From Candidatus Latescibacterota bacterium (lineage in GTDB: Bacteria; Latescibacterota; UBA2968; UBA8231), in the NCBI GenBank assembly GCA_016187725.1, contig JACPJE010000068.1, positions 1 to 64,000 of the forward strand: DNA of 64,000 nt, read 5' to 3'. How positions within the stretch are numbered: the stretch's first letter is position 1; the number at the start of each line of letters is the position of its first letter. The notes below the pieces were generated by a model. That model had not been told where the DNA came from. It ran no database searches and saw only the letters and a program-made list of their open reading frames with translations. The position numbers and the translations under genes are program-made. Of this stretch, positions 34,323 to 57,617 are shown in pieces.

Positions 34323-35666
34323 TTATTTCACCTTGGCCATCAGCTGCTGGGTCAGCCCGCCCTCCTGAGTGAGCGCAAAGACGACGGTGTTGATGGTGAA
34401 TTGCAGGTGGCGCCGGCCGTCGACGGCGACCTGGAAATTGGCCGTCCCTACCTTGGCGGACTCGGTGACGACCTCCCGCGCCCCGGTGATGAACACGGCC
34501 AGGCGCTCGCCGATCACCAGGCCCATGTCCCCCACGTGCGCGGCGATCTTCTGGTTGTCCCGCACGGCCATGTCGAAATCGAAAAAGGCGTGGTACAGCG
34601 GATGGTCGGGGTTGAGGTACACGAAGCGCCAGTCCGCCCCTTCGTTCAGGCCCTGGGATTTCAGGGCCTGCCTGAACTTGTCGAAGAGCACGCCGTTCAT
34701 CTTTTCGTTGGGTCCCGAGCTGACGATGGCAAATCCCCCTTCGGCCAGATAGCGCCCCAGGCTTTTGATCTCGCCTTCGTTTGAAGAATGCGGTTCCCTG
34801 AACCAGTTGGGCAAAAGCAGCCAGGGCACCTGCTGGAGACGAGGGTCATCGAGGGGAATAGGCCCCATGTAGCTGGCTTCGATGCCGGTGTATTCGTCGA
34901 GGGCCTTGATCAGGAAGTCCAGGCTCTGGTATTCGGTCAACTGCGAGGTCAGGGTCACGGCGCTGCCCGATTCGTGGGCTTCGACCTGGGGCAGGGCCCG
35001 GCTGCGGGTAAAAGCCTGGGCCAGGTAGATGTAGCCGCTGATCTTGCGGCGGTCATCGGGGTCCTGGACTACCATGGCCTGATATTGGCCGGTGTCCATG
35101 TCCCTGATGCTGAGCATGTCGAGGGTCATGTTGACCTGCCCACTGGTCTCCTTGACCCCCCTGACCTCCACCTTGCTCAGCTCGGGCAGGGGCAGCGCAG
35201 CGCCCCCCCCGGTTTGGCCCGCCAGTTCGGCGCCCACGCCGAGGCGCGCCTGGCTGCGCAGCAAAGAGGGCGCGATCTTGGCGGCATCCAGCTTGCTCAA
35301 CAGCGCTCCGGTGCGCATGGCCGCCAGCTTCTGGATCTCCTGGGCCCGGGGTTTGGCCACCTTGGTCTTCTGGTCGCGGTACGCGTCCCTGGGCACCGGG
35401 CGCTTGCGGAATTCCAGCGTCCGGTTGGAGGCGCGCGGCACCTTGAAAAACACACTGGGCAGCGGCGGCGACCTGAAGGTGATGCGCTGCACCACCTCGC
35501 TCACCTGTTCCCCCAGCGCCAGGTACCCGGCCAGCGTCAGCAAGTGCAGCGCCGCCGACAGCGCCAGGCACCACCAGGCCGTGCGCTTCGAGATGCGAAA
35601 GGAGAACTCCTTGGCTGGGGAGGCTCCAAGAGCCCCCCCAGCCGCAGAGCCGTCAATGGATCTCAC
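34323..35666 (-). CDS. DUF4159-domain membrane-anchored protein
   Basis: 447 residues. I chose the GTG at 35666 because it overlaps the stop of the CBM9-like gene in a GTGA. One membrane segment (W-W-C-L-A-L-S-A-A-L-H-L-L-T) near the N-terminus is followed by a Pro/Lys-rich stretch and a C-terminal DUF4159 region (L-L-P-N-W-F-R-E-P, L-G-R-Y-L-A-E-G-G-F-A-I-V-S-S). The layout resembles TonB-like periplasmic proteins. Function unknown. Confidence 0.75.
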   Translation of the reverse strand: MRSIDGSAAGGALGASPAKEFSFRISKRTAWWCLALSAALHLLTLAGYLALGEQVSEVVQRITFRSPPLPSVFFKVPRASNRTLEFRKRPVPRDAYRDQKTKVAKPRAQEIQKLAAMRTGALLSKLDAAKIAPSLLRSQARLGVGAELAGQTGGGAALPLPELSKVEVRGVKETSGQVNMTLDMLSIRDMDTGQYQAMVVQDPDDRRKISGYIYLAQAFTRSRALPQVEAHESGSAVTLTSQLTEYQSLDFLIKALDEYTGIEASYMGPIPLDDPRLQQVPWLLLPNWFREPHSSNEGEIKSLGRYLAEGGFAIVSSGPNEKMNGVLFDKFRQALKSQGLNEGADWRFVYLNPDHPLYHAFFDFDMAVRDNQKIAAHVGDMGLVIGERLAVFITGAREVVTESAKVGTANFQVAVDGRRHLQFTINTVVFALTQEGGLTQQLMAKVK

Positions 35667-36619
35667 TGGGACAGTTTCTTGACGGTGCCCCAGGTGCTCT
35701 CTTCGACTGCAGTGGGTACCGACAGATCTTCCTGCAGGATGAAACGCGGCCACTTATTGTTGGTGCCTATGGTGGTCTGGTCACCGCCGAAGTAAGTTTG
35801 GCCGTAGAGATTGTCGCCATCGGGATCGGGGATGATGAAGCGGCCCCTGAAAGCGAACCCGGAACCGACCCTGTTGCGGTTGTCTGGATCAAAGAGGAAG
35901 ATCAGATCCCACGGGACACTGGATTCGAGGTAGTACCCCGTTGAATTGGGCCCGCCAAAGAGCTGGGCGCCCAGGAAGTAGTCGGGATCATCTCCGTAGT
36001 TGATCTGGGTGCCCGTGCCGTCCTGGAAGTGCTGGATCTGCATGGAGAACGCCGCGTCGTTGGCGTTTACCGGCGCGGCGCGGAAATCGACGATATTGTT
36101 GGTGTTGTTGGCGCCGGTGCCATCGCTCAGGTCAAAGGTGATCCAGAAGGTGTCGCGCTGCCAGAAGGCATTGTCGTTGGCGCCGTTGGTCCGGTCCTCG
36201 ACCACGTCGTAGTGGTTGTCGATGTTGTTGGCGGCGACGTAGAAGTTGTTCTCATCCCAGGAGAAATAATAATTGGTGGTGAGATCCACGTCGGTCCCGT
36301 TCTCCGCCGGATCTTCGCCATCAGCCAGGTAGAGGTTGTTGTCCACGTCGATGGCGTACACGCGGATGCGGCGCGAGATGAGATCCGAATCCTGCGTATA
36401 GCCGTACTTGTCGCCCCAGGCCCAGATATCCGAGGGCTTCCAGGACAGGTGGTACCCACCCGCCTCCAGGTCGCTGACGTTGCCGTCGACCTTCGGGGTG
36501 TATTTGGGAATGCCGCCGTCGCCGGAATGCCAGTACACGCCGTTGCCCATCAACTGGGCGCTGGCCGCAGTGGCCAGCGCCGTGAGCCCGACCAGCGCCA
36601 GATAAGGGACTCGTTTCAT
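35663..36619 (-). CDS. Secreted CBM9-like protein with WG-T-V-K tail
   Basis: 318 residues from ATG 36619 behind AAGAGGAGG. Signal peptide M-K-R-V-P-Y-L-A-L-V-G-L. The mature part has CBM9 (DOMON-like sugar-binding) features: K-V-D-G-N-V-S-D-L, W-D-E-N-N-F-Y-V-A-A, W-I-T-F-D-L-S-D-G and P-W-D-L-I-F-L-F. It ends TAVEESTWGTVKKLSQ, the tail shared with two secreted proteins at the start of the window. It overlaps the DUF4159 gene by 4 bp. Confidence 0.8.
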   Translation of the reverse strand: MKRVPYLALVGLTALATAASAQLMGNGVYWHSGDGGIPKYTPKVDGNVSDLEAGGYHLSWKPSDIWAWGDKYGYTQDSDLISRRIRVYAIDVDNNLYLADGEDPAENGTDVDLTTNYYFSWDENNFYVAANNIDNHYDVVEDRTNGANDNAFWQRDTFWITFDLSDGTGANNTNNIVDFRAAPVNANDAAFSMQIQHFQDGTGTQINYGDDPDYFLGAQLFGGPNSTGYYLESSVPWDLIFLFDPDNRNRVGSGFAFRGRFIIPDPDGDNLYGQTYFGGDQTTIGTNNKWPRFILQEDLSVPTAVEESTWGTVKKLSQ

Positions 36620-36682
36620 CTGTATCCTCCTCTTGTGGGTTAGGTTCACAAAATGGCACAGGGACCGCTCCTCAGTCTGTCC

Positions 36683-37489
36683 TCACCTCCTTTCCAATGC
36701 GAGTTTCGCGCGCGCCCCGCTCTCATTCAGCCCGGTAGCCGACTTCAGCGCCCCGGGTTCGGCGATCTCGCTGCGAACGGCAAAAGCGAATTCCAGATCG
36801 ATCTGCTGCTGGGGGATGTTGTAGATGCCGAATTCCAGGACGAACCCTTCAAAGCGCAAGGCCACCCTTTCCGTGTTCTGCGGCAGCGGATCGAAGACCA
36901 GTTTGCCGGTGTAGGAATTGCCCTTGAACACGAAGGAATCGCGGTGGTAGACCGCACCGCGCAGCACCCCCATGCGCTCCAGGTAGAGCTTTTGGATGTT
37001 GCCGCTCTGCACCCCGCGGGAAAGCCAGTAGGTCTCGAAGTTCCGGGGGTCCCCGTGCGCCCCGGCCCGGGTCAGCTGATAGGGATGCATGATCATGCCC
37101 CGGTCCGTTTTCAGCGCGGCCCTCTCGGGCTGCAAGAGCACCTTGTCGAAGGTGGGGTTGTTCAGCGTGACCTGGAAAACGGTAAAGCGCGGCGGCACGT
37201 AGCCCAGTTGCGGGTCCACCTGGCCGCGGTAGGTGAAGGGATTGCTGGTCTCCGGGTACTGGGAGTCCAGGTCCGCGTCGCTCAGGTGGCGCACCTTGAG
37301 CCGCAGCCCCTCCTTGGCGAAGACCGCGGCCTGGTCCACTGGATCCACCTGATACCCGCCGGCTCCCTGCACGGGGGTCAGTTCGGACCGGTAAGCCGCC
37401 CGTATGGGGGTGAGCGAGAGGCAGGCACTCAGCCCCACCAGCAGCGCCGCGGCCAGGGCGAACTCCCATCTGGGTGGTGAGATCTTCAT
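36683..37489 (-). CDS. Predicted lipoprotein, unknown function
   Basis: 268 residues. A signal peptide ends in the lipobox V-G-L-S-A-C23, so it should be lipid-anchored. The rest shows alternating hydrophobic strands (F-Q-V-T-L-N-N-P, V-F-D-P-L-P-Q-N, V-L-E-F-G-I-Y-N), as in an immunoglobulin-like fold. I do not recognise a family. It lies between the TPR protein and the CBM9-like protein in the envelope train. Confidence 0.75.
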   Translation of the reverse strand: MKISPPRWEFALAAALLVGLSACLSLTPIRAAYRSELTPVQGAGGYQVDPVDQAAVFAKEGLRLKVRHLSDADLDSQYPETSNPFTYRGQVDPQLGYVPPRFTVFQVTLNNPTFDKVLLQPERAALKTDRGMIMHPYQLTRAGAHGDPRNFETYWLSRGVQSGNIQKLYLERMGVLRGAVYHRDSFVFKGNSYTGKLVFDPLPQNTERVALRFEGFVLEFGIYNIPQQQIDLEFAFAVRSEIAEPGALKSATGLNESGARAKLALERR

Positions 37490-40827: not shown

Positions 40828-43632
40828 TCAGAACCCGAAGACCATTTCGGCGAAGAAGGTCCTGTTGCTCACCTCGCTGGTTTTGCGCTCTTTTCGCTGG
40901 TACTCAAAACCCATCTCGGTCACGGTGCTCCAGCCCAGATAGGTGCTCTGGGTGCGCAGCATGAGGACGTCGGTCCAGCGCCTGAAATTGTTCTCCCTGG
41001 CATTGTGTTCGTTGTGGTACACCGGCAGCAGGCCCGGAACGCCTTCCTGTCCGGCCACCAAGGCCGTGCGCTCGGTCAGCTTGAACTCCTCTTCAAAAAG
41101 GAGGCCATAGGTCGACCAGTGCTGGCGGAGTTCCGGGGCATAACCGGCGTCCCGCCAGTAGAGGTGACGCGCCCGGGCGGTGAAGGTCAGGGCCTTCCTG
41201 AGCGGGCGGCGGTACTCGATCCGGTGGGAGAGGGTCAGCCGGCTCAGGGTCCGGTCCTCCTGGGCCGTGCCGTCGGCAAATTCGTCCTCGTTTTGCCGAT
41301 TCAGGTTCCACTTGTAGCGGCAGCGCAGGCTCAGATTTTCGGCCGCCTGCAGATCCGCAGCCAGGTAGAAGGTGCCCGCCGTGCTGTTGCGCATCAGCAT
41401 CAGGTCGGGATCGGGATCCTTCAAATCCAGCAGCTTGTACTGCCCCTCGCGCTCCTGGATCACCATGGAGTTGACGCGGGGATCGGTCGCGTTCTTCCAG
41501 ACGTACACCGGATCGGCGATGGAATCCTCGACCCGCTTCAGGTCGCCCAGCAAGGCGAACTGCCCCCACGGTTTCGGTTGGTAATGGGTTCCCCAGCGCA
41601 GGTACCCGACCCGGCTTTCACCTCCGCCGGCGAGTTGTTCGCTGCGATAGAATCCCAGGCTCAGCTTGTCGAAACGGGGCCCGCTCAGATCGAGCAGACC
41701 GTGGTACCCCCGCTGGTCCCGGCTGTAAGGGTAGTCCGGCGCGTCGTCGTTTTCGGTCTGATCGGGCAGCCCGTTGTTGTTCATGTCGATATCGTAGATG
41801 AAGGCGGGCGGATCTGACCAGAAAAACAGGAAGGGCTCGTCCCAGTCGGGCACGCCGTTGGCGTTCTGATCCGTGTCGGGCACATTGTCCTTGTTCTCGT
41901 CCAGACCGGGAAAAACCCCCGCGTCGTTCTGCCCGGCCAGGGGCGTGTCGTCTGGCATGTCGTCTGGCCACTGGTCGCCGTCGTCGTTGTCGTCGAAGAG
42001 GTTGAATTCCTGGGTGAGAGCAGTGTTGGGCGGCGCCACGGGCACGTCCGTATGGAAGATCGCCCCACCGCGCCTGGAATCGTAGTTGCCGCTGAAATCG
42101 GCGGGCAGGCGGTAGACCTCAAAGCCCAGGCGCGGCGCCCGGGCCCCCAGCAGGGGCAACCTTCGCTGGGCTGTCAGATAATAGGCCCTCACCTCCTTGC
42201 TATTGCGGCGCCCTTCCTCAAAGGGGAATTTGAAATTCTGCACGTTGAGGGCGAATTCGCCGTTGACTTTGAGCCCGGCGTAGTCCATTTGCAGCTCCAG
42301 GCTGGCCAGGGTCTGGGCCGTGGGAAAACCGTAGTCGAAGCGCACCTCCCGGGCCGCTAGGCTGCCGGAGGCGCCGGCGGACCGCACCACGGTATAGGCC
42401 GGCTGCGTTTCGGGGAATTTGAAATCCAGAGGGTATTTCAGATCTCCCCCATCCCCTTCGAAACCGGCGGATTCGGCCGGATTGCTCCTGGGCAGGCCGG
42501 GCCATTGCATGGCCTTGGTCTGCACCGTGGTCCTGCCGGCGACGGTGCGGGTGAATTCGTGGGTGTGCTGCTGCCGCACCTGGATGCGGTAATCGCCGCC
42601 CACCTGGGCGATGAACTGGGCCTGGCTCGACTGAAAACCCGCCGGCATGGCAAAGGTGAATTCGATCATCTCCCCTTCGCCGGAGGCCTCCCAGTGGTCG
42701 CCCACGGCCCGGCCGGAGGGCCGCCCCGGATCCATGCTCGCCACCCATTCCACCTCTCCGGTGGCCAGTTCCTGCGCATTGGTGATGGCCTTTTCGTTGC
42801 CTGCCTCGTCCCGCCCCCGCACCACCACGTCGACGGCGTAGGCCGCCGCCGGGATGGATGTTTCGTGCGGCGAATCGTCCACCACCCGGACGGCGATAAG
42901 ATCCGGGGGCCTCATGCCGTTGGAGAGGTTGCCCCTGAAGATGCTGCCCTTGCTGGAGGAAGCGTCGGTGATATGCTGGTTGACAAAGGTGCTGCCCAGG
43001 CGCAGGACCGAGCCGATCTGGGTCTCCCAGTGCGTGCCCCAGAGGATCACCGGCGACCGCTCGTCCTGCCCGGTGGTGAAGATCGAAAAGCGGTCCCGGT
43101 CTCCGGCGCCCCGGCTGTAGATGAAACTGGCCTTGTTCTTGGGGCCGTTGACGTCGAAGCGCACGCCGGTATAGCGGGTCATGTTCAGGGTCAGGGGCGA
43201 GAAGCGCGTCTTGATCGGGGCGGTCTCCACCTGGTCGCTGCCCAGCATGACCATCATCGCATAGCTGCGCCCCTGGTACGAATCCTGTAAAACGGTGTAG
43301 TTGAAATCCAGGCCGACGGCATAGACGTTGCCGGTTTCAAAGCGCAACCCCTGCATCCGGCTCAGTCCCGGCCGGTCTTCGTCGGCCGAAAGCATCACCC
43401 GGCCCTGCATGAGGTAGCGGCCCAGGCGGTCGTAGCTGGGGGCATCCCAGCCGAAGACCGGAAATGGCGCAAAAGGCTCGAAGGCGTAATTCCGGTAGGG
43501 ATTGTACTGGCCGTAGTTGAGGAAGTCCCGCTGCACCGCGGTGCGCGAATTGAGCTGGGCGGAGGCCGGGTTTGCCGGCAGCAGGGCGGCCAGCGCCAGG
43601 CAGAGGGGCAGGATGTTGACGATCCTCGGCAT
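40828..43632 (-). CDS. Outer-membrane barrel candidate with calcium-type segment, paralogue 3
   Basis: 934 residues with a signal peptide (P-R-I-V-N-I-L-P-L-C-L-A-L-A-A-L-L). The C-terminus ends F-F-A-E-M-V-F-G-F, an aromatic-final strand like the BAM signal. Between residues about 540 and 645 lies an Asp/Asn-rich segment (D-D-N-D-D-G-D-Q-W-P-D-D, D-E-N-K-D-N-V-P-D-T-D, D-M-N-N-N-G-L-P-D), of the thrombospondin type-3 kind that binds calcium. It shares Y-D-R-L-G-R, the S-P-L-T-L block and this segment with two upstream genes. No characterised family is recognised. Confidence 0.7.
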   Translation of the reverse strand: MPRIVNILPLCLALAALLPANPASAQLNSRTAVQRDFLNYGQYNPYRNYAFEPFAPFPVFGWDAPSYDRLGRYLMQGRVMLSADEDRPGLSRMQGLRFETGNVYAVGLDFNYTVLQDSYQGRSYAMMVMLGSDQVETAPIKTRFSPLTLNMTRYTGVRFDVNGPKNKASFIYSRGAGDRDRFSIFTTGQDERSPVILWGTHWETQIGSVLRLGSTFVNQHITDASSSKGSIFRGNLSNGMRPPDLIAVRVVDDSPHETSIPAAAYAVDVVVRGRDEAGNEKAITNAQELATGEVEWVASMDPGRPSGRAVGDHWEASGEGEMIEFTFAMPAGFQSSQAQFIAQVGGDYRIQVRQQHTHEFTRTVAGRTTVQTKAMQWPGLPRSNPAESAGFEGDGGDLKYPLDFKFPETQPAYTVVRSAGASGSLAAREVRFDYGFPTAQTLASLELQMDYAGLKVNGEFALNVQNFKFPFEEGRRNSKEVRAYYLTAQRRLPLLGARAPRLGFEVYRLPADFSGNYDSRRGGAIFHTDVPVAPPNTALTQEFNLFDDNDDGDQWPDDMPDDTPLAGQNDAGVFPGLDENKDNVPDTDQNANGVPDWDEPFLFFWSDPPAFIYDIDMNNNGLPDQTENDDAPDYPYSRDQRGYHGLLDLSGPRFDKLSLGFYRSEQLAGGGESRVGYLRWGTHYQPKPWGQFALLGDLKRVEDSIADPVYVWKNATDPRVNSMVIQEREGQYKLLDLKDPDPDLMLMRNSTAGTFYLAADLQAAENLSLRCRYKWNLNRQNEDEFADGTAQEDRTLSRLTLSHRIEYRRPLRKALTFTARARHLYWRDAGYAPELRQHWSTYGLLFEEEFKLTERTALVAGQEGVPGLLPVYHNEHNARENNFRRWTDVLMLRTQSTYLGWSTVTEMGFEYQRKERKTSEVSNRTFFAEMVFGF

Positions 43633-43646
43633 GCTTCCGATCCGAC

Positions 43647-46544
43647 CTATTCGGGTGAGAAGATCACGTCGACGAAGAAGGAGGTGAAATCGGTGTCCGC
43701 CGCCAGGGCGTGCCGGTTGAGATCCGCCTTGGCCCGCCGCAGGCCCACGGTGGACACCATCCGGTAGCCGCCGTAGGCCCCCTCCATGGTCAGTTGGAGC
43801 AGGGAGACGTTCTCGGTGTAGCCCTTGGCCGGGAGCCGGCGGTCGATGTAGCGCCCCTGCAGCCCGGGCGCGAAGAGGCCGTGCTGGCCGAACTCGACGT
43901 GGGTCCGGGGGGTGAGTTCATAGCTGAACACCACCTCCGGGGTGAGCAGGGACCACGAGGCCGCGCCCTCCGGCACTGCCACCGTGTCCAGCCGGACCGC
44001 CCCGTCGTCCCCTGGCGCTTCCTGGACGAATCTGTAGGTGCCCAGGGTGTCCACGGGCACGTAGCTGCCCTCGTCCCATTTGGCCAGCAGGTGTTTGACC
44101 CGCGCCGTCGCCTTCAGTTTTGGCAACACCTCCCTGGTGTAGGAGGCCTTGTTGACCATGGAGAAGTTGTGCCAGGTCCCCGGTGCCTGCGGCCGGTCCT
44201 CGTCGCTGAACTTGCGGTTGATCGTATAGTTGAAGGAATTGCCCACCTGCAAGCCAGGCAGGGGCAGCCAGCGGCTGTCCAGGTGCGCCGTATTGACCAG
44301 CGAATTGCGCATGGGCAAAAAATCCGGCAGGGGCGGGCTGGGCTGGTTGTAGCGCTGGCTGAGGGCCACGGCGTCCCGGGTGCCCGCGCCGCCCGGATCG
44401 AAGACCAGGATCACCCGGTAGGTGTCGTCCGGAATATTGTCGTGTACCCGCTTCAGGTCGTCGTTGAAGCTCAGCCAGAACTCCGGCGCCTCGCAGGACA
44501 GACCGACTCTGCCATAGACGGCGTTCATGCGGTGTCCGCCCACCAGCTCGGTGGAGCGATACCAGCCGAGGCGCGCCAGGTTCAGCCACCAGGGGCGGCT
44601 GGTGAGGTCGTAGAACAGCTGGGTGCCCTGCTGGTCCCGCCGGTACGGGTAGTCGGGCTCGTCGTCGTTCTCGCGGAAGTCGGGCACCAGGTTGTTGTTG
44701 AGGTCGAGTCCGTAGACGAATTCGGGCGGGTCGGCATCGTAGCCCAGGAAGGGTTCGAGGTAATCCTCCACCGCGTTGCGGTTCTTGTCGTGGTCGAGGA
44801 CGAAATCGCCGTTCAGGTCCAGGCCCGGGTACACGCCGCCTTCGGGCCGGGAGGAGGGAAAGGTCGGCCGCTCAAAAGCGCCCCGCGCCATGTAGAGCAC
44901 GTCGGCGCTGCCGGGGTAATCATCTGGCCAGTTGTCGTGGTCGTCGTTGTCGTCGTAGGCCCTGAACTCCTGGGTCATGGCCACCACCGCGTTTTCCACC
45001 CCGCCCTGTAGCTCGCGCACGTCGGTGTGCAGCACCAGGCCACCCCGCCGGCTGTCGTACCCGCCGCCATAGGTGGGCTCGATGCGGAACACCTCGGCGC
45101 CCACCTGGCCGGCGGCGCCCATCTTTCCCTGGAGGGTCAGGTACCCGGCCTTGCTCGTCTGGCGGAGGCGCCTCCCCCTGGCCGTGGGGAACTTGAAGTC
45201 CTGGGGGTTGAGGGCCAACTCGCCGGTCAGGTGGAAATGCTCGGAGAGCCAGTTCACGTTGAGGCCGTAGAAGGACTGGGCGGTGGGGATGGAGTGCTTG
45301 AAGCGCACCACCCTGGGGCCCTCCATGGCCGGGCTGCCCTCAGCCCGCCTGACCGTGAAATACATCTCCTCCTGCCCCAGGTGGTCCTGGAACTGGTCCA
45401 GGCTGAACTGGCCCGTGGGGTTGAAGGGCCAGGCCCGGCTGGTGTCGAGCGCCCCGCCGGGCAGTTCAAAGTCGTAGAGCTGCCTCATGCCGATGCGGTA
45501 GTCCCCCTCCACCATCAGTTCAAAATCGGCCGCCGCGATCACCAGGTCGGGCTGCACCTGGTAGAGGCCCTGCAGATCAAAGGTGATGACGATGCCCTCC
45601 TCAGCTCCGTCTGCCTCGTAGTGGCTGCCCACTGCCCGCCCACCGGCGAAGTTCGGCGCCAGGCTGGCCTGGTAGCTGTAGCCGGCGGGCCCGGCTCGGT
45701 CTGGGGCGCTGGTGTAGAGGAGTTCGGTGGAATCGGCCGTGCCCCGCAGAAAGATCTGCGCCCCGTACACGGCCGCCCCGCCCAGATCGCGGGGCGAATC
45801 GTCGGTGACCCGGACTTTGATCATCTTGGGCGAACGGAACTCGGGGTAGGGCACGTCCCCCCGCACCAGCGACCGGGGATTGCTCTTGATGTTCGACTGC
45901 AGTTGCCGGAAAAAGGTGGTCCCCACCTCCAGCGCGCCAAAGCGCCCCCGCCAGTTGGCGCCGGTGACGATCACCGGCGAGAGTTCCTCGAAGCCGCGCT
46001 GGTCGCCGCGCAGCCGCGAATAGAGCAGGGAGGCCTCCAGAGAGCCGCCCCTGGAGAGCAGCAGGGTGAGATCGTGGCGCGGCGAACCGTAATCCACCCG
46101 CAATCCCCCGAAGGTCATGCTGTTGAGCACCAGGGGAGTGAAGGTCGTGGACAGGTTGCGGCCCACTGCCATGCTCATGTGCCGGCCATTGTAGCTGTGG
46201 CGCACCGCGGTGAAAAAGTTGAAAAAGTCGCTCTGTTGTAAGACTTTGCTGGTGCCGCTCAGGTCGGCCGTTCCCACCCCGGCGTCGATCTTGGCCTGGG
46301 TGTAGCGGTCCCTGATTTCGCTCCAGCGCAGACCGTAGACCCCGTAGCTGACAAACTGCCCCAGGCGGTCGTACATGGCGCTGCGGGCCGGCACCACCGC
46401 GTCGTAGGCGATGTACCGGTCCCGGGCCTGGGGGAAGTAAGGAAGGGGCGGTTCGCGCAGGAACACCCCGCCGAAAGCCGGCCCGGCCGGCAAAACGCCG
46501 CCGAGCAGGGCCAGGGCCAGGGTGGTGCAGCTCCATCTCTTCAT
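43647..46544 (-). CDS. Outer-membrane barrel candidate with calcium-type segment, paralogue 2
   Basis: 965 residues. I chose ATG 46544 because the signal peptide (M-K-R-W-S-C-T-T-L-A-L-A-L-L) then starts cleanly; a longer start in the same frame would overlap the upstream gene. The Asp/Asn-rich segment is at about 525-640 (D-D-N-D-D-H-D-N-W-P-D-D, D-L-N-N-N-L-V-P-D). The C-terminus is F-F-V-D-V-I-F-S-P-E. It shares the Y-D-S-R-R-G-G and R-D-Q-Q-G blocks with its neighbours. It is 14 bp from barrel gene 3. Confidence 0.7.
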   Translation of the reverse strand: MKRWSCTTLALALLGGVLPAGPAFGGVFLREPPLPYFPQARDRYIAYDAVVPARSAMYDRLGQFVSYGVYGLRWSEIRDRYTQAKIDAGVGTADLSGTSKVLQQSDFFNFFTAVRHSYNGRHMSMAVGRNLSTTFTPLVLNSMTFGGLRVDYGSPRHDLTLLLSRGGSLEASLLYSRLRGDQRGFEELSPVIVTGANWRGRFGALEVGTTFFRQLQSNIKSNPRSLVRGDVPYPEFRSPKMIKVRVTDDSPRDLGGAAVYGAQIFLRGTADSTELLYTSAPDRAGPAGYSYQASLAPNFAGGRAVGSHYEADGAEEGIVITFDLQGLYQVQPDLVIAAADFELMVEGDYRIGMRQLYDFELPGGALDTSRAWPFNPTGQFSLDQFQDHLGQEEMYFTVRRAEGSPAMEGPRVVRFKHSIPTAQSFYGLNVNWLSEHFHLTGELALNPQDFKFPTARGRRLRQTSKAGYLTLQGKMGAAGQVGAEVFRIEPTYGGGYDSRRGGLVLHTDVRELQGGVENAVVAMTQEFRAYDDNDDHDNWPDDYPGSADVLYMARGAFERPTFPSSRPEGGVYPGLDLNGDFVLDHDKNRNAVEDYLEPFLGYDADPPEFVYGLDLNNNLVPDFRENDDEPDYPYRRDQQGTQLFYDLTSRPWWLNLARLGWYRSTELVGGHRMNAVYGRVGLSCEAPEFWLSFNDDLKRVHDNIPDDTYRVILVFDPGGAGTRDAVALSQRYNQPSPPLPDFLPMRNSLVNTAHLDSRWLPLPGLQVGNSFNYTINRKFSDEDRPQAPGTWHNFSMVNKASYTREVLPKLKATARVKHLLAKWDEGSYVPVDTLGTYRFVQEAPGDDGAVRLDTVAVPEGAASWSLLTPEVVFSYELTPRTHVEFGQHGLFAPGLQGRYIDRRLPAKGYTENVSLLQLTMEGAYGGYRMVSTVGLRRAKADLNRHALAADTDFTSFFVDVIFSPE

Positions 46545-46566
46545 CGCGCGTTGACCATGCAGTTGC

Positions 46567-49329
46567 TCAGTTGCCGATGATGACGTCCAGGAAGATGCCA
46601 AAGGCGTCGTAGTCGCGCTCCTGTCCTCCCTGATCGTAATTCCGCCGATGTAATTCTAGGCCGGTGCTGAGGTCGACTACATAGCCCTGGTAGTCATCCG
46701 TGCGCCCGTTGAGCATGAACACCATCTTGCGCTCCTTATAACTCATGGACTCATCCTCGTTGTTCACCAGGCGCATGGGCAGCGCCGGGAATCCCGAGGT
46801 GCCCCACTGAAAACTCATATCCTCGATGATCTCGTACGAAACCTTGAAGATGGGGCCGAAGAACCGGATCGACTGGTCCGGCCAGGCCGGGCCGCGACGC
46901 CCTTCCTTGAAGGCGTACTTGCCGCCGGTCCACAGGTCGAGGTTCCCCCAGGAATGATGGTACTCCCCCCGGGTGGTGAGCGAGAATTCCGCGAAGGATC
47001 CGCTTTCCTGAATCGCGGCGCCGCCTTCCTCCATCCGGCGCTGGTGATTGAGGAAATGGAGCAGGTCGGCGCGCAGCTCCAGATCAGCCAGTGGCTGGCC
47101 GACCAGTTGCAGAAAAGCGGTATTCACCGCGCTCTTGCGCATCACCAGCGGATCGGCGGGAGGTGGGTTGAACGGCGTATTGGTGTTGGCCCCGAAAAGG
47201 GCGGTATCGCCCGTCACCCAGGCGTACACTTCGTCGCGGATGCTGTCCTCGACCAGCTTGGCGTCGTCGTCCAGCTCGATACGCACTCCCTTCCCGGGGT
47301 GCCACCTGGCCTTGCCGCGGACGTAGAGGGCCTGCGCTTTGCCGGCCCCGGCGATCTGGCGCAGGTCGTAATAGCCCAGGACCACCCGGTCCAGCCAGTG
47401 GACTGGCCGATCAAGGCCGGCGAAGCTGTGAAAGCCGCGCTGGTCCTTGCGGATGGGATAGTCGGGGTAGTCGTCGTTCTCGCGGAAATCGGGCTGGGCG
47501 TTGTTGTTGAAGTCGATGCCGTAGACGAAGTCGGAGGGATCAGAGCCGTAGTGCAGAAAGGGTTCGTTCCAATCCGCCAGCCCGTTGCGGTCCTGGTCGT
47601 TGTCCGGGGCCTGGTCGCCGTCCACGTCGAGCCCCGGAAAGACCCCTGCCCAGGGGGTCGCGCCAAAGGAGCCGGGGATTTCGGCCGCATAACGCCCGCC
47701 GTCCTCAAAGGTGTCGTCCGGATAGCGGTCGTCGTCGTCGTTGTCCTCCACCAGGGAGAACTCCTGGGAAAAGGCCTCCGTGCCGCTGGGGCCCCCCCTG
47801 TCGGTGAAAAAGACCGTGCCGCCGCGCCGGCTGTCGTACCCGCCGCTGTACTCGGGGTCCATGTGGAAGAGTTCCCCACCCAGTTCCGCGCGCAGCCCGT
47901 GCAGCTTCAGGGGACGGCGCAGATTGAGGGTATAGGCCCAGCTCCCCCGGTGCGTCTTTTTGCCTTTGACCTGGAGCGAATCTTCGGCAAAGGGGAAATG
48001 CCCCTCCTCGATATTGTACACGACTTCTCCCTGGGCCAGCAGCTCCTTGGCGTCAATCCTGAAATCCGTGCCGATGAGGGTTTTGCCCGAGGGGATGGCG
48101 TAGTCGAACTTCACCGTGCGCCGGCGTCCCAGGCCGGGACTGCCCTCCGCCCTGGCCACGGTAAAGTGGGGCTGGGTCTCACCGGGCTTGAAGTCGATGG
48201 GGTAGAGCGGCCCCCCCTGGGTATGCGAAGGGGGGGCGGGCCAGGACCGCTGCTCGGTGCGGCGCTGGTCGTTGGCAGTAAAGGTGAAATCGTGGACCTG
48301 CCGCACGGAGATGCGGTAGTCGCCGGCCACCTCCGCCCTGAACAGGGCACTGAGGACCTGGCCCTGGGGGGGCAGGTTGAAGGTGAAATCCACCGCCTCG
48401 CCAGGACCGCTGACCTGGAGCAGGTCACCTGCGCGGCGTCCTCCCCGGGGCGGCTCCGCCTGGACGTCCATCCGCGTCCTGGCTCCGTCTTCGCCGGCGA
48501 CTTCCAGTTCCAGATCCATCTGGTACACCCCGGCCGCGGCGCCCAGTTCGGGCGCATCGCTCTCGACGCGCACAAAGATCTGGGTGGGCGCCTGCATCTG
48601 ATAGGGCTGCGTGCCATTGATGAAACTGCCCTGCTTGGACTCCACGTCCACCTGATGCTGGTTGTACAGGGTCGCCCCCAGGGTCAGGACCTCGCTCAGC
48701 TGGCGGTGGTAGCGGCCGCCATAGGCCAGCACCGGACTCAGATCCCGGCGCGCGTCAAAGGCGGAGAACCGCCCCAGGGCGCCTCGCGTCAGCAGTAGGG
48801 TGAAGCCCTGGCGCTCGGCCTCCGCGTCGATACGCACGCCCTGCCACCGCGGAGTGCGCAGGGTCAGGGGGGTGAGCGCCGTGCGGATATTGTCGCCGGC
48901 CAGGACGGCGAAATTCCACCCCTTGTAGCTGTCGTTGGCGATCACCAGTTCGCTGAAGAACTCGAAGAGAAAATTCTCCCGCACCAGCCGGCTTTCCTGT
49001 AACCCCAGGCTGTCCGAGCGGGTTTCGCGCCAGCTCACCAGCGGGTAGCCCCGCAGCAGATGCGTGCCCAGGCGGTCGTAGAGTTCCTCCGAGCGCACGC
49101 TGACCGTGGTCGGCAGGTAGGGCTGCCCCCCGTAGTTCCAGTACCCGGGCCAGACCTCCCGGTTGAGGAAGGAGCGCAGCGGTTGGGAAGCAGGTGCGGT
49201 GATGATGCTCAGCCCGGAATTGGGAGAGCGCTTGGCCTGCTGAGCGGAGACGGGAAGGCAGAGGAGGACCGCCAGCAGCGCGACCAGGCTCTGTTTTACC
49301 TTACCCCCCAATGACTTGTGGACGGCCAT
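46567..49329 (-). CDS. Outer-membrane barrel candidate with calcium-type segment, paralogue 1
   Basis: 920 residues from ATG 49329, chosen for its signal peptide (cleavage near L-P-V-S-A-Q); a TTG at 49389 lies further up in the same frame. The Asp/Asn-rich segment is at about 525-635 (E-D-N-D-D-D-D-R-Y-P-D-D, D-N-D-Q-D-R-N-G). The C-terminus F-L-D-V-I-I-G-N matches the strand pattern of its neighbours. It shares E-P-F-L, F-V-Y-G-I-D-F-N-N-N and E-N-D-D-x-P-D-Y-P with them, so the three arose by duplication. Confidence 0.7.
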   Translation of the reverse strand: MAVHKSLGGKVKQSLVALLAVLLCLPVSAQQAKRSPNSGLSIITAPASQPLRSFLNREVWPGYWNYGGQPYLPTTVSVRSEELYDRLGTHLLRGYPLVSWRETRSDSLGLQESRLVRENFLFEFFSELVIANDSYKGWNFAVLAGDNIRTALTPLTLRTPRWQGVRIDAEAERQGFTLLLTRGALGRFSAFDARRDLSPVLAYGGRYHRQLSEVLTLGATLYNQHQVDVESKQGSFINGTQPYQMQAPTQIFVRVESDAPELGAAAGVYQMDLELEVAGEDGARTRMDVQAEPPRGGRRAGDLLQVSGPGEAVDFTFNLPPQGQVLSALFRAEVAGDYRISVRQVHDFTFTANDQRRTEQRSWPAPPSHTQGGPLYPIDFKPGETQPHFTVARAEGSPGLGRRRTVKFDYAIPSGKTLIGTDFRIDAKELLAQGEVVYNIEEGHFPFAEDSLQVKGKKTHRGSWAYTLNLRRPLKLHGLRAELGGELFHMDPEYSGGYDSRRGGTVFFTDRGGPSGTEAFSQEFSLVEDNDDDDRYPDDTFEDGGRYAAEIPGSFGATPWAGVFPGLDVDGDQAPDNDQDRNGLADWNEPFLHYGSDPSDFVYGIDFNNNAQPDFRENDDYPDYPIRKDQRGFHSFAGLDRPVHWLDRVVLGYYDLRQIAGAGKAQALYVRGKARWHPGKGVRIELDDDAKLVEDSIRDEVYAWVTGDTALFGANTNTPFNPPPADPLVMRKSAVNTAFLQLVGQPLADLELRADLLHFLNHQRRMEEGGAAIQESGSFAEFSLTTRGEYHHSWGNLDLWTGGKYAFKEGRRGPAWPDQSIRFFGPIFKVSYEIIEDMSFQWGTSGFPALPMRLVNNEDESMSYKERKMVFMLNGRTDDYQGYVVDLSTGLELHRRNYDQGGQERDYDAFGIFLDVIIGN

Positions 49330-49521: not shown

Positions 49522-50832
49522 TCAGCGCTCGGGCCAGGGTTCACTTATTTTTATTTCGCCCTTATAGCGCTGCCGCAGACTGTCGATAAAGGCATCCATC
49601 CGGGTGGTGGCCAGATCCCGGCGGACGGCCTCCTGCACTTCGTCCAGCTCCAGCGGGCGCCCCTGGCTCTCAGGGTCGCGATAGCGGTCTCGATGCTGCT
49701 CGTAGAAGGTGCGGAGTTGTTGGGCGGCGTCCTCCCCTTCGGCGGTTGCCAGTTCAAATAGACGCTCGCCGAGCAACTCCTTTCTCTTGCTGCCCAGCTG
49801 CCGACGTATGCTCTCCAGCTCCCCATAACCCAGGGTCCGGGCTTCCAGACTGGCCAGGTCCTCCATGGCCAGGCGCTCGGCGAGGCGGTGGATCTGGGCG
49901 CTGTCGCTGAAGACCGGCTGGGGCACCTGGGCGCGGCGCAGGTAGTCGGCGGCCTTCAGCTGTCCTCCCTGCCAGGAGAAGAGCGACTGGTCGGCGGGCA
50001 ACTCTTCTCTGCGGGCCATCTCCGCCGCTACTTCGGGATTCCATCTCAGGCGGTATCGCTCTTGCAACTGGCCCCAGCAGGTCTGCTGCCTGGCCAGTTT
50101 CTTTTCGGTTTCCAGCCTTTGTTTCAGGTCGGCTCGCTGCTCCTCCAGGCTCTGCCCTCGCCTGCCCAGCACCTTCACCACGTGATACCCCAGGCGCGTG
50201 TGGATGGGCTGCGCACAGACCTGGCCTACCTCAGCGCTCCAGATTGCCGCGGCGATTTCGGGCAGGACCATCCCGCGGCGCAGGAAGCCCATGTCCCCGC
50301 CGTAGGGCATGCTCTCCGCGTGCCTGGAACGGGTGCGCGCCAGTTCGGCGAAATCCCCCCCCCGCGCCAGTTCGGCCAACACCTCCTCGGCCTCCTCCTC
50401 GCTGGCGCACAGGATATGCGCCAGGTGGCGTTGATCCCCGGCGCCCCATTCCTCGTACCTGGCGCGGATCTCTTCCTCTGTCACCTCGATGCCGGCCCAC
50501 ACCTGGCGCGCGAAATACTCCTCCGCCAGCAGCTTGCGCTCCAGGACTTCCAGCTCCCGGCGGATTTCCGGAGCCTGGTCCAGTCCCCGGCTCTCGCCTT
50601 CCAGGCCCAGCAGTTCGGCGGCGATGAGTCCGTCCAGCACCTTTTTCCGTTTTTCCCCGTCCAGGTGCTCTGCGTCCACCGGTGCCCCGTAGATTTTGCG
50701 CGCCCCCTCGGCCAGATCCGCCGCGCTGATGGGGCGCCCGCCGACGGTGGCCACTACCTCTCCGCGCGGTGCAGCGCCGCATCCCCAGATAGCGAGGGCC
50801 AGCAGGCATCCCCATCGCGTTATCGATCTCAT
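49522..50832 (-). CDS. SurA/PpiC-like peptidyl-prolyl isomerase lipoprotein
   Basis: 436 residues. A signal peptide ends I-W-G-C18, suggesting lipid anchoring. A SurA-type N-terminal domain (about 30-110) precedes a parvulin domain (about 134-226, H-I-L-C-A-S, G-G-D-M-G-F-L-R-R-G, H-T-R-L-G-Y-H-V-V-K-V). A long C-terminal helical part follows. Such proteins escort unfolded outer-membrane proteins across the periplasm. It starts the gene train that encodes three barrel candidates, which fits that job. Confidence 0.85.
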   Translation of the reverse strand: MRSITRWGCLLALAIWGCGAAPRGEVVATVGGRPISAADLAEGARKIYGAPVDAEHLDGEKRKKVLDGLIAAELLGLEGESRGLDQAPEIRRELEVLERKLLAEEYFARQVWAGIEVTEEEIRARYEEWGAGDQRHLAHILCASEEEAEEVLAELARGGDFAELARTRSRHAESMPYGGDMGFLRRGMVLPEIAAAIWSAEVGQVCAQPIHTRLGYHVVKVLGRRGQSLEEQRADLKQRLETEKKLARQQTCWGQLQERYRLRWNPEVAAEMARREELPADQSLFSWQGGQLKAADYLRRAQVPQPVFSDSAQIHRLAERLAMEDLASLEARTLGYGELESIRRQLGSKRKELLGERLFELATAEGEDAAQQLRTFYEQHRDRYRDPESQGRPLELDEVQEAVRRDLATTRMDAFIDSLRQRYKGEIKISEPWPER

Positions 50833-50975: not shown

Positions 50976-52094
50976 CTAGTTCTGCCTTACCCGCTCTTCG
51001 TAGGGCAGCGGCTCGGGAATCCCGAAGAGGTCGCGCTTGGCCTTGAGGTAATAGAGGTAGTTCTCATAGGTCACGTCGGGCGGCACCCGGTGGTCCACGT
51101 GGGGGATGCAGCCGCCCTGGCGCACCAGGGGCTCGATCCGCCGCAGTTCCCGGTCTATGGCTTCCTTGCCGGCGATCAGCGCCTTCTTGTCCACCCCGCC
51201 CAGCAGCAGCACCCGCTCGCCGTATTGGTCGCGCAGGGCGAAGGGATCGGTGCCGGCGGCGATCTCCAGGGGGAACATGCAGTTCACCCCGCCCTCCAGC
51301 CACAGGCCCACCAGCTGGCTGATGTCCCCGTCGCAGTCGGTGATCACCACGTCCACCCCGTGCTGGTGGAGCAGGTCGGTGATCCGCTGGTAGCGGGGCA
51401 CCATGTACTGCTCGAACATCGCCGGCGAGATGATGGGCCCGTGGTTGAAGCACATGTCCTCCCAGCCGGCGGCGAAATCGAAGTGCACCTGTTCCAGGGC
51501 CGGCCGGATGGTCTCGGCGATCAGCACGGTGATCTGCTCCATCACCTCCTCGAAGAGCGCCGGGTCGTCGTAAGCCATCAGCGAAACCCCCTCGAAGCCC
51601 ACCCAGTTGCGGATCCAGCCGAAGAGACTGCCGATGCCGATGCCCAGGGGGTAGTCGCGCTCCTGCCAGTGGGCTTTCAGCTCCTCCCAGTTGGGCGGAT
51701 AGCGGCCCACCATCCCCGGGTCCAGCCGGCGGCGGAATTCCTTCCAGGTCTGCCGGTCGCGCAGGGGGAACTCCAGGTACTTGGGGATGGAGGAGTGCCC
51801 GTCCCTGGCGACGATGCACTTGACCCCGTTGCCGTCCAGGACGATCTGGTGCTGCCTGGTCTCCTCCAGCACCTGGTGCTGGAAGCCGGGCAGCAGCCCG
51901 GAGTTGACCGGGGCTCCCGAGCGGGGGGCGAAGCCGAAGAAATGGTCGGCCTTGGCGTTGTCATTGACCCAGGCCGGCAGCCCCTGGGCGTGCCACAGGT
52001 CGAGGGTGTCGCTCCAGTACCCGAACTCCTCGTCTGGCACGTGGTCTGCGGGCCGAAAATGCATGGTGTCATTCCACCGCTGGCGATGGTCCAT
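50976..52094 (-). CDS. URO-D-family corrinoid methyltransferase candidate, copy 4 (last in operon)
   Basis: 372 residues from ATG 52094 behind GGAGAGGAG. URO-D/methyltransferase-type TIM barrel. The usual metal-ligand position reads V-I-T-D-C-D-G and the late loop G-G-C-I-P-H-V-D-H-R-V-P-P-D-V, unlike the HxC form of MtaA. Relatives move methyl groups to or from corrinoid proteins. The neighbours (corrinoid protein, activase, folate enzymes) support that role. Substrate unknown. Confidence 0.85.
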   Translation of the reverse strand: MDHRQRWNDTMHFRPADHVPDEEFGYWSDTLDLWHAQGLPAWVNDNAKADHFFGFAPRSGAPVNSGLLPGFQHQVLEETRQHQIVLDGNGVKCIVARDGHSSIPKYLEFPLRDRQTWKEFRRRLDPGMVGRYPPNWEELKAHWQERDYPLGIGIGSLFGWIRNWVGFEGVSLMAYDDPALFEEVMEQITVLIAETIRPALEQVHFDFAAGWEDMCFNHGPIISPAMFEQYMVPRYQRITDLLHQHGVDVVITDCDGDISQLVGLWLEGGVNCMFPLEIAAGTDPFALRDQYGERVLLLGGVDKKALIAGKEAIDRELRRIEPLVRQGGCIPHVDHRVPPDVTYENYLYYLKAKRDLFGIPEPLPYEERVRQN

Positions 52095-52114
52095 GGCAGG
52101 GCTCCTCTCCTTCC

Positions 52115-53251
52115 TCACTTTATGCGCGCTGGATCGATGGGATAATCCCCCCACGCCTCCACCATCTCCCCGATACGCTCCAGCCGGCTCAGCAGCGCCC
52201 CGGGCATGACGTTGTCGGCCACCCCCAGGATGAAGGCGTCGCCCGGGGCGACGGTGCGGAAGATGCCGCGCATGTACGCCTCGAACTGGTCTTCGCTGTA
52301 GGCTTCCTCCAGGATCACCGAGGGCACCGCCCCCCAGATGATCATGTCGGCGCCCCAGAAGCGGCGCGCCTCCTCCAGCGTGCAGGTCACCTGCGGGGCG
52401 GTGGTGAAGGTCTCGACCATGTCGAAACCGGCCTCCTGCAAATGCCTCAGGATCAGCCGCGAGTCGTTGTCGGCGTGCATGCACAGGAGCTTGTCGTGCC
52501 CGTGCAGCAATTCGGAGAAATCCTGGTAATACGGGGTGATGTAGCGGCTGAAAAGCGGCGGCGGGGTGAGGTTGGAATCCAAGTGGACCCCGTGCAGGAT
52601 CAGGCGGGCCGGCGAGGCGGCCACCACCGGCCAGACCCGCTCGCGTTCCAGCTCCTCCATGGTGCGCAACAGCCGCTCCGTTTCGCCGGGACAGTCGGCC
52701 AGCAGATAATAGGCGTTGTTGTACCCGGCCAGTTTTTGCAAGAAATGGTGGAGGGGGCAGTCGCCGGCCGCCACCAGGGGATAGCCGTCCTCGCCGATCT
52801 GGGCCTCGTACTGGAGGTACTTCTCGTAGGTGGGGATGTAGTGGGTGTGCTCGAACAGGTATTCGACCACGGCGAAGTCGGCGGGACCCTTGATCAGGTG
52901 CTCCACCTCCAGGCTCTGGATGCCCACCCGTTCCAGTTCGGCTGAAGAGCGGTACCGGCTCTCCACCTGGCCCATTGGGGTCCGGTAGGTGTACAGGGTG
53001 GACTCGCCCTCCTGGCGGCTGTGCACCTCCACGTCCCCCCGCTGCTCGCCGGCGAAGATCTGCCCTTCGCGCGCTGGCGTTCCCATGCCCAACTGGTGTT
53101 CGATCTGGCGCAGGGACATGCCGGCAAAGCGCTTGGGCAGGGTGTGCTGGCACTGGTGGGCGGTGTGCCAGAGTTGCAGCCGGGGTATCCAGGGGATACG
53201 GTCCGGGCTCTTGCGGTCCATGATGGCCAGCAGTCGCTCCCGGTCGGTCAT
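52115..53251 (-). CDS. URO-D-family corrinoid methyltransferase candidate, copy 3
   Basis: 378 residues from ATG 53251 behind GGGAGG. Opens T-D-R-E-R-L-L-A-I-M-D-R-K-S-P-D-R-I-P-W, as in URO-D family proteins. The metal-ligand loop reads L-C-M-H-A-D-N-D, an HxD variant. It lies 13 bp after the folate fusion gene and 20 bp before copy 4. It differs enough in sequence from the other three copies to act on another substrate or partner. Confidence 0.82.
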   Translation of the reverse strand: MTDRERLLAIMDRKSPDRIPWIPRLQLWHTAHQCQHTLPKRFAGMSLRQIEHQLGMGTPAREGQIFAGEQRGDVEVHSRQEGESTLYTYRTPMGQVESRYRSSAELERVGIQSLEVEHLIKGPADFAVVEYLFEHTHYIPTYEKYLQYEAQIGEDGYPLVAAGDCPLHHFLQKLAGYNNAYYLLADCPGETERLLRTMEELERERVWPVVAASPARLILHGVHLDSNLTPPPLFSRYITPYYQDFSELLHGHDKLLCMHADNDSRLILRHLQEAGFDMVETFTTAPQVTCTLEEARRFWGADMIIWGAVPSVILEEAYSEDQFEAYMRGIFRTVAPGDAFILGVADNVMPGALLSRLERIGEMVEAWGDYPIDPARIK

Positions 53252-53264
53252 CGGTGCCCTCCCT

Positions 53265-55784: not shown

Positions 55785-55799
55785 GGAGGGCCTCTCTTT

Positions 55800-57617
55800 C
55801 TAACCGTTGAACAACATGGACTCGGCGAAGCGCATCTGGAAATCCGGGGTGCCGGCCAGTTGGAGGTGTTCGGCCTGCCGGGCGGCCAGCGTCCCTCGCT
55901 GGCGCAGGGCTCTGGAGACCAGGGCCAGGCGCGCGCCCACCAGGGCGCCGTTGCCCACAAAGCGGATTTTTTCTGGGTTTACCGCCGGCAGCAGGCCCAG
56001 GCGCAGGGCGCTGTGCTCGTCGAGGTAGTTGCCAAAGCCCCCGGCCAGGCAGAACTCGTCCAGGTCCCCAGGGGTCAGACCGGTCTTCTCCAGCAGGAAA
56101 TCGATGGCCGTGCGGATGGAGCCCTTGGCCAGCTGCAATTCGCGGATGTCGCGCTGGGTCAGGGCCAGGGGCGGCTCCCCCTCCCTCCAGGCCAGCACAA
56201 AGGCGCGGTCTTCTTCCTGTTCGATCAGCCGCTCCTTCCAGACCTGGGCTTCCACCTCCTCGGGGTCCAGCAGGCGCCCGGTCTCGTCGACGATCCCGTG
56301 GCGCACCAGCTCCGCTCCCGCGTCCAGCAATCCCGAGCCGCACAGGCCGCGCGGCGGCCCCCCGCCGATCACCTTGAGTTTGACGTTCCCGTCCAGGTGC
56401 ACCTCCTCGATGGCGCCGGGGGCGGCGTACATGCCGCAGGCGATGCGCGCCCCCTCGAAGGCGGGCCCCGCCGGGGTGGAGGTCACCAGCAGGCGCCTGC
56501 CGTAGCGCAGGGCCAATTCGCAGTTGGTGCCGATGTCGGCCACCAGGCGGATGCGGCCCTCGTCCTCGTCCAGGCCGGTAGCCAGGATGGCCCCCACGGT
56601 GTCGGCGCCCACGAAGCCGGCGATCTCGGGCAATATGTAGAGCCAGGCCGCCGGGTTGAGCGCCAGGCCGGCCTGGCGGGCCGGCATCTCCAGGGCGTCG
56701 CCGAAGATGGCCACGTAGGGCAGGTGGCCCAGTGACAGGGGCGAGATGCCCAGGAAGAGGTGCATCATGGTGGAATTGCCCACCAGGGTGGCTTCGTACA
56801 CCTCGGCGTGCTGCACCCCGGCTTTTTCCAGAGCCAGACCGATCACCTCCTGGAGGCTGGCCACTGCTGCCTGGCGCAGCTCTTCCAGTTGCGCTTCCCC
56901 TGCGAGGGTGTGGTTGATGCGGGCGATCACGTCGTGGCCATAGGCGGTCTGTTTGTTGACCACCGCGGCATGGCCCACCTCGCGGCCACTGACCAGGTCC
57001 ACCAGCGAGGCCACCACCGTGGTGGTGCCCAGGTCCAGGGCCACGCCGAAGCAGCGCCCGGAGGTGTCCCCCCGCTCCAGGCCGAGCAGGCGGTCCTCGC
57101 GCAGCACCGCGGTGAAGGTCCCCCCCTCCCCGTCGAGCAGGGAGGGCAGCCGGCGCAGGAGATCCAGGTCGGCCCGCAGGTCAGCCCGCAGCTCCCCCGA
57201 CCAGCGCAGGTGTTCCAGCCGCGCCCAGGGCTGGTGCAGTTTCTGGGGCTCCAGGTGGACGACCTGCTTGGTCACCGCCGGGTCGATGGCCACCGGGCGG
57301 CTCACCCCGCCGGGCAGGATGCGCATGGCCGGCCGCCGCGACGAGGCGGGGATCTCCACCCGCAGGGACCCGGCGACCCGCACCCGGCAGGAGAGGCGCA
57401 GCCCCTGGTCCAGCTCTTCGGGGGTGAGCAGGGCGTTCTCCTCGGGCAGGGGCGGTGCGGCTCCCTCCTCGATGCGCACCCGGCACTTGCCGCAGGTGCC
57501 CTCCCCCCCACAGGGGGCCAGCACCTCGGCACCCAGGCGGGCCAGGGCCTCGCGCAGGGGCAGGCCCTCGGGCACTTCGGCGCTCTGGCCTTCGGGAAGG
57601 AGGGTCAGGATGCTCAT
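55800..57617 (-). CDS. RACo-type corrinoid activation protein (2Fe-2S ferredoxin plus ASKHA)
   Basis: 605 residues. An N-terminal plant-type 2Fe-2S domain has C36, C42, C45 and C77. A middle linker leads to an ASKHA/DUF4445 ATPase (G-V-A-L-D-L-G-T-T-T-V-V near 191, L-V-A-D-I-G-T-N-C-E-L-A and G-S-G-L-L-D-A-G). Family members use ATP to re-reduce inactive Co(II) corrinoid to Co(I). It overlaps the DUF1638 gene by four bases, consistent with serving the corrinoid protein of this operon. Confidence 0.92.
   Translation of the reverse strand: MSILTLLPEGQSAEVPEGLPLREALARLGAEVLAPCGGEGTCGKCRVRIEEGAAPPLPEENALLTPEELDQGLRLSCRVRVAGSLRVEIPASSRRPAMRILPGGVSRPVAIDPAVTKQVVHLEPQKLHQPWARLEHLRWSGELRADLRADLDLLRRLPSLLDGEGGTFTAVLREDRLLGLERGDTSGRCFGVALDLGTTTVVASLVDLVSGREVGHAAVVNKQTAYGHDVIARINHTLAGEAQLEELRQAAVASLQEVIGLALEKAGVQHAEVYEATLVGNSTMMHLFLGISPLSLGHLPYVAIFGDALEMPARQAGLALNPAAWLYILPEIAGFVGADTVGAILATGLDEDEGRIRLVADIGTNCELALRYGRRLLVTSTPAGPAFEGARIACGMYAAPGAIEEVHLDGNVKLKVIGGGPPRGLCGSGLLDAGAELVRHGIVDETGRLLDPEEVEAQVWKERLIEQEEDRAFVLAWREGEPPLALTQRDIRELQLAKGSIRTAIDFLLEKTGLTPGDLDEFCLAGGFGNYLDEHSALRLGLLPAVNPEKIRFVGNGALVGARLALVSRALRQRGTLAARQAEHLQLAGTPDFQMRFAESMLFNG

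Follow-up and report, generated by a model that had tools for sequence, protein, structure and literature searches.

Giant outer-membrane barrels of Latescibacterota and their possible role in a motor-driven envelope machine

Introduction

Three tandem genes on a contig of a Candidatus Latescibacterota bacterium code for large proteins that look secreted. What do these proteins form in the cell envelope, and what does their arrangement in threes mean? The window (the whole stretch of DNA analysed, 64,000 nucleotides) comes from a metagenome assembly with 5% contamination. The original prediction read the three genes as candidate barrels with calcium-type inserts and suggested a transport system or a surface organelle. 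We followed it up with family searches, structure models, a tree and a comparison of gene neighbourhoods. Genes at the compared loci were called by open frame and profile.

Results

The tandem genes and their locus

The locus contains the following genes.

49522..50832, minus strand: PPIC-type peptidyl-prolyl isomerase, SurA/parvulin-like (Rotamase PF00639, 2.5e-15)
46567..49329, minus strand: barrel gene, tandem position 1 (P0001), 920 aa
43647..46544, minus strand: barrel gene, tandem position 2 (P0002), 965 aa
40828..43632, minus strand: barrel gene, tandem position 3 (P0003), 934 aa
37510..40770, minus strand: TPR protein of 1,086 aa, directly 3' of position 3 (Pfam/NCBIfam search)
36683..37489, minus strand: predicted lipoprotein, its class (profile class cl3) recurring at barrel loci
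35663..36649, minus strand: CBM9-like secreted protein (CBM9_1, 5.4e-06) with a C-terminal TAVExxSWGxVK-type motif
34323..35753, minus strand: DUF4159 protein (PF13709, 4.2e-10)

What had been read from the letters was confirmed. The three paralogues of 920–965 aa were full-length and in the expected place, with pairwise identities of 31–34%. They shared a Y-D-R-L-G block near the N-terminus and a P-L-T-L or P-L-V-L block, and all three N-termini were hydrophobic and signal-like. The richest 100 residues of the Asp/Asn-rich segments contained 28–35 Asp and Asn residues, against 11–12% overall. The SurA-like chaperone gene upstream and the giant TPR gene downstream were both found, upstream and downstream being meant in the direction in which the minus strand is transcribed. 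Orthologues of the tandem genes in other genomes had 44–71% identity and no internal stops, indicating that the three are real coding genes. One close orthologue (70% identity) was on a Candidatus Latescibacterota contig of SZUA-1027. Orthologues of the 1,086-aa TPR protein also followed tandem barrels in other genomes. The lipoprotein had no Pfam match, and the DUF4159 gene was part of the same cluster as ExbB-ExbD-ExbD in related loci.

Next to the locus, at 50976-57617, are look-alikes of corrinoid/uroporphyrinogen-decarboxylase-type methyltransferases and a corrinoid-activation protein, an impression from the sequence.

Family identity and spread

The giant outer-membrane barrels are an undescribed family without a database name, as had been expected from the absence of any recognised family. 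The three proteins matched no Pfam or NCBIfam family at E ≤ 0.01, and two of them, together with the inserts, had no relevant Pfam family even at E ≤ 10. PDB searches with single sequences and with a 57-member family profile gave no match with a meaningful E-value. No characterised transporter family was matched in Pfam, NCBIfam or PDB sequences. A literature search found no description of the barrel family or its loci.

Known families were tested by name. For TonB-dependent receptors and SusC, the three proteins had no Plug or other Pfam match at E ≤ 0.01. For the SprA/Sov translocon, there was no SprA_N (PF14349) match, a separate true SprA homologue was located elsewhere in the genome, and hhalign profile comparison covered 92 columns at a probability of 3%. 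For PorV/PorQ and PorP/SprF, neither NF033709 nor TIGR03519 matched the three proteins. For LptD and chaperone-usher proteins, the three proteins had no Pfam match; fold matches were present but did not stand out.

The family-profile search found the barrel family in 39 of 64 Latescibacterota genomes. These covered all of the window's taxonomic family and five further families. Four other families, three of them in the window's class, had no match among the 64 genomes. The complete genome G018 alone contained 47 copies, each of nearly full length. When the search was widened to 386 genomes, it added eight matches outside the phylum (best E 6e-85), seven convincing (G379, G246, G247, G102, G101, G092 and G374) and one weak (G344). 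These homologues were more divergent. From this spread, the family is old and extends beyond the phylum, but it has been expanded in Latescibacterota.

The order of the tandem copies is old

A tree of 102 members was built with a quick method and SH-aLRT support. The window's positions 1, 2 and 3 fell into three separate, strongly supported clades. Each clade contained the same-position genes of G003, from the same genus, and genes of G041 and G043, from other families. Orthologues in the position-1 clade came from G003, G004, G014, G041 and G043, and those in the position-2 clade from G003, G019, G041 and G043. A second set of triples and the pairs showed the same pattern, and the order of the tandem genes was also kept in other genera and families. 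These position-specific clades ruled out a recent tandem duplication.

At eight pair loci, the distance matrices of the two positions were correlated (r = 0.94, Mantel p 0.0008), and partners within pair loci were only 39–49% identical. These sequence comparisons indicate duplication of entire operons, with every position retained. The copies are therefore probably not interchangeable.

Fold and membrane topology

The mature position 3 protein was modelled using AlphaFold2 with 57 family members. The model was not a soluble fold but a large all-beta barrel type, consisting nearly entirely of strands, with a mean pLDDT of 80.8 and a pTM of 0.84. The top matches in Foldseek and VIA were SlpA/SDBC, MtrB, LptD, TonB receptors and porins, which supports the predicted outer-membrane barrel. 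SlpA/SDBC of Deinococcus ranked first in Foldseek and was one of the leading VIA matches. In VIA, DcaP gave Z 14.2 with an rmsd of 5.2 over 237 residues, and SDBC gave Z 13.9 with an rmsd of 7.9 over 430 residues. No good whole-length structural match was found, TM-scores for large barrels being 0.34 or less. Comparison with a viral structure library gave generic barrels and chance matches only. Most family members ended in an F-[IV]-x-x-[YF]-A-G-like strand.

DSSP analysis of the position 3 model located eight strands of transmembrane length before residue 195 and another seventeen after residue 410; the start may add a short one. Counted from secondary structure alone, the barrel would have about 25–26 strands. 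Short turns (1–9 residues) alternated with long loops. The C-terminus is periplasmic in other barrels of this type. If so here, the secondary structure would place the long loops outside, including residues 196–409 and the Asp/Asn-rich residues 484–613. Both inserts are assigned to the outer side because both fall on the long-loop side. The inserts are listed below.

47428..47751, minus strand: Asp/Asn-rich insert of position 1, residues about 527–634, read from the sequence
44619..44957, minus strand: Asp/Asn-rich insert of position 2, residues about 530–642, read from the sequence
41701..41994, minus strand: Asp/Asn-rich insert of position 3, residues about 547–644, predicted to be on the outer side
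42328..42969, minus strand: beta-sandwich domain inside the position 3 barrel, modelled separately with AlphaFold2, predicted to be on the outer side

The Asp/Asn-rich insert is the most conserved part of the family (residues 551–625, mature numbering). Invariant columns included D522, D525, D570, D590, N594, D598 and E601. Homologues in other phyla kept the insert string, e.g. VEDDDDDDDWPDD...DDRDQNGILDYQEDFLIFEADPPVF...DLNNNGTIDSLEDDFEPQY. The calcium-type character proposed for this insert was partly upheld: a DxNxNGxPDxxE-like motif with invariant acidic residues was present, but no calcium-binding family matched at E ≤ 10. The pattern suggests that the insert is possibly a calcium-binding element. 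TSP3 and bacterial TSP3 repeats were considered and not adopted, as the inserts alone matched no Pfam family at E ≤ 10 and the likeness of motif was by eye only. None of the named calcium-repeat families matched the inserts.

The 196–409 insert, modelled alone, formed a beta-sandwich (pLDDT 85.5, pTM 0.82). Its best VIA match was the C2/PLAT-like C-terminal domain of the C. perfringens alpha-toxin (Z 6.0, rmsd 3.2, 106 residues). We did not take this as kinship, since a Z of 6.0 is too low to imply anything beyond a common arrangement. The best Foldseek match was DUF4425, a weak one (E 3e-3).

These features raise the possibility that the barrels are a structural surface layer or porins. They would then anchor a coat in a role like that of SlpA/SDBC, with caps stiffened by calcium, and any link to ExbB/ExbD would be incidental. 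The SlpA/SDBC fold matches, the calcium-type cap and the high copy number fit such a coat. However, the whole-length TM-scores are low, and it is difficult to regard as incidental the ExbB-ExbD-ExbD genes that several families and other phyla have beside their barrels (see below). We consider a structural coat very improbable.

Gene neighbourhoods in relatives

In G018, 42 of the 47 barrel genes were within 3 kb of an F5/8C-family gene, compared with 7.0 ± 3.8 in 1,000 circular shifts. Representative members of this gene family contained F5/8C domains together with CHU_C/FlgD_Ig domains, which are T9SS-type C-terminal domains. The 39 barrel-bearing genomes had F5/8C-family matches at E < 1e-30; in the 25 genomes without barrels the matches were weak, at about E 1e-12 to 1e-17. 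About 60 of the 143 listed F5/8C genes in G018 were more than 6 kb from any barrel, and therefore F5/8C proteins do not always need one. Genes for the isomerase, a CBM9-like protein, the lipoprotein and TPR proteins recurred at barrel loci, and the clade holding the window's genes adjoined a TPR protein of about 1,090 aa.

ExbB-ExbD-ExbD genes were found at window-clade loci on contig C17 of the window's own genome, at two loci each in G018 and G006, and in G047. PorV-like genes adjoined barrels at the same C17 locus, in G018, G047, G051 and G054, and in other phyla. The order in G047 was F5/8C, PorV-like, two barrels, TPR, two small genes, ExbB, ExbD, ExbD and a DUF4159-like gene. In other phyla, barrel forms of about 1,100 aa were followed by ExbB-ExbD-ExbD (G379, G102, G247), and forms of about 775 aa were located with PorV-like genes, mostly also with CTD proteins (G379, G246, G247). 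The distant homologues thus retained part of the partner set. ExbB-type genes were scarce, at 1–8 per genome, and the sole MotA/ExbB gene found in G102 adjoined a barrel.

The window's own locus contained the TPR, lipoprotein, CBM9-like, DUF4159 and isomerase genes. A search of the window found no ExbB/ExbD, PorV-like or F5/8C gene there, so the link to a motor rests on the relatives. Taken as a whole, the conserved neighbourhood suggests a physical complex, a reading drawn from gene order.

Several further features of these loci were noted. On contig C85 of the window's own genome (L161), PorV-like, 1,081-aa TPR, ExbB, ExbD, ExbD and DUF4159 genes stood in a row, with no barrel in the examined stretch. 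This cluster is a possible candidate for a motor acting in trans for the window's locus. Many of the barrel-less F5/8C genes of G018 occurred as pairs, coding for about 780 and 690 aa, with catabolic-looking neighbours (L122-L134). The C-terminal TAVExxSWGx[VI]K-type motif of the window's CBM9-like protein was present in 30 of 35 CBM9-like proteins of barrel loci (L126), and a similar tail ended other secreted-looking proteins. The motif may be a short surface-sorting signal. Membrane proteins that combine PMT/TMTC-like glycosyltransferase domains with TPR repeats recurred beside the barrels at L091, L121 and further loci of the F5/8C type, which suggests glycosylation of surface proteins. In two genomes of other phyla (L135, L140), a Wzz/BY-kinase-like gene for polysaccharide chain length was directly upstream of the barrel, and ExbB-ExbD-ExbD was downstream.

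A SprA homologue of about 2,050–2,170 aa was found in every genome tested (G000:C251, L072, and others), including genomes of two families without barrels. A T9SS-type translocon therefore exists in the phylum. The search with TIGR03517 (GldM) gave no match in any genome, controls included.

Carbohydrate-binding partners beside a motor could also mean energised import of the SusCD kind. Large glycans would be taken up through the barrels, with the F5/8C and CBM9-like proteins as binding partners at the surface, and ExbB/ExbD would power the opening of the outer cap; the many copies would be substrate-specific uptake loci. This reading accounts for the many copies of loci with carbohydrate-binding domains in a genome, the catabolic-looking neighbours of barrel-less F5/8C genes and the ExbB/ExbD genes at related loci. 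However, Pfam gave no plug domain or TonB-receptor match, degradative enzymes were not identified at the barrel loci examined, and no TonB gene was recognised beside the ExbB/ExbD genes. The T9SS-type C-termini of the partners and the PorV-like barrels fit surface display at least equally well. We regard import as unlikely, though with a real chance of being right.

The PorV-like and CTD-bearing proteins that adjoin the barrel also fit a dedicated exporter driven by ExbB/ExbD. In that case, the barrel would be a translocon parallel to SprA or an outer pore for polysaccharide. The Wzz/BY-kinase-like gene directly upstream of it in two genomes of other phyla, with ExbB-ExbD-ExbD downstream, fits an exporter too. 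However, a SprA homologue is already present in every tested genome, homology of the barrel to SprA is unsupported (profile probability 3%), dozens of copies per genome are unusual for a general translocon, and no OPX gene was recognised. An exporter therefore appears improbable to us.

Discussion

A proposed envelope machine

We give an even chance to the reading that the barrels form the outer-membrane platform of an envelope machine driven by a proton motor. In this machine, the barrels would act together as a single platform. Each would carry the beta-sandwich domain and the conserved, possibly calcium-binding, Asp/Asn-rich segment on its predicted outer side. An ExbB/ExbD motor would drive the machine from the inner membrane, in trans for the window's locus, and the TPR protein would span the periplasm and link the two membranes. 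Surface proteins that bind carbohydrates and are delivered by T9SS might then be held or moved by the outer caps. As for the transport or surface-organelle role suggested at the outset, the surface machine is favoured by the T9SS-type C-termini, PorV-like genes, ExbB-ExbD-ExbD and TPR proteins, but these do not favour import, export or force transmission over one another. The fuller proposal is more tentative and somewhat less likely than not: an undescribed proton-motor-driven machine of giant barrels with putative calcium-binding caps, in fixed sets of two or three unlike barrels, duplicated dozens-fold in Latescibacterota and present in several other phyla.

In this uncultivated phylum, the nameless family takes up dozens of genes in a genome, and gene order links it with a proton motor and with secreted surface proteins. 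Should the link be true, Ton, Tol, T9SS and Agl-Glt would be joined by a further surface machine of the ExbB/ExbD type, a new member of the small set of motor-driven outer-membrane machines. Latescibacterota genes that now form a large unannotated block would also gain a role. The idea can be tested by means of the family's signature and its conserved partners, and the related loci of other phyla may lie in cultivable species.

Comparison with known systems

TonB-dependent and SusCD systems also combine multi-copy outer-membrane barrels, carbohydrate-binding partners and ExbB/ExbD energy. Unlike them, the barrels here had no plug domain, and no SusD or TonB gene was recognised at their loci. 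LptD, MtrB and Deinococcus SlpA/SDBC are likewise large single-chain outer-membrane barrels and are among the closest by fold. They differ in that no sequence relation was found, the whole-length TM-score is low, and the inserts and gene context are different.

The T9SS has a similar set of parts (PMC10202324): a large barrel, PorV-like barrels, CTD-bearing surface proteins clustered with a barrel, a TPR protein and a proton motor. In T9SS clusters, type B cargo genes are beside a PorP/SprF barrel that is thought to anchor them (PMC10202324). In the genomes studied here, however, SprA is a separate gene, and the barrel would have about 25–26 strands compared with 36 in SprA. The barrel had no SprA or PorV family match, and its loci contained ExbB/ExbD with no recognised GldL/GldM.

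The Agl-Glt and Nfs systems of Myxococcus xanthus have one ExbB/TolQ-like and two ExbD/TolR-like motor genes, TPR proteins and outer-membrane proteins, and their copies specialise (PMC3169522). The likeness is one of parts lists, with the motor set found in related loci and absent from the window's own. The Glt outer-membrane proteins are small (GltA 256 aa, GltB 275 aa; PMC3169522), whereas the barrels here have about 920 aa and a large Asp/Asn-rich cap, and the C-terminal domains and PorV-like barrels among their partners are of a T9SS-like kind. Because the SprA, PorV and plug searches gave no match and Agl-Glt is likened by its parts list, we place the barrel machine in neither system. By analogy, our best reading is that it would work like the Agl-Glt or T9SS adhesin systems.
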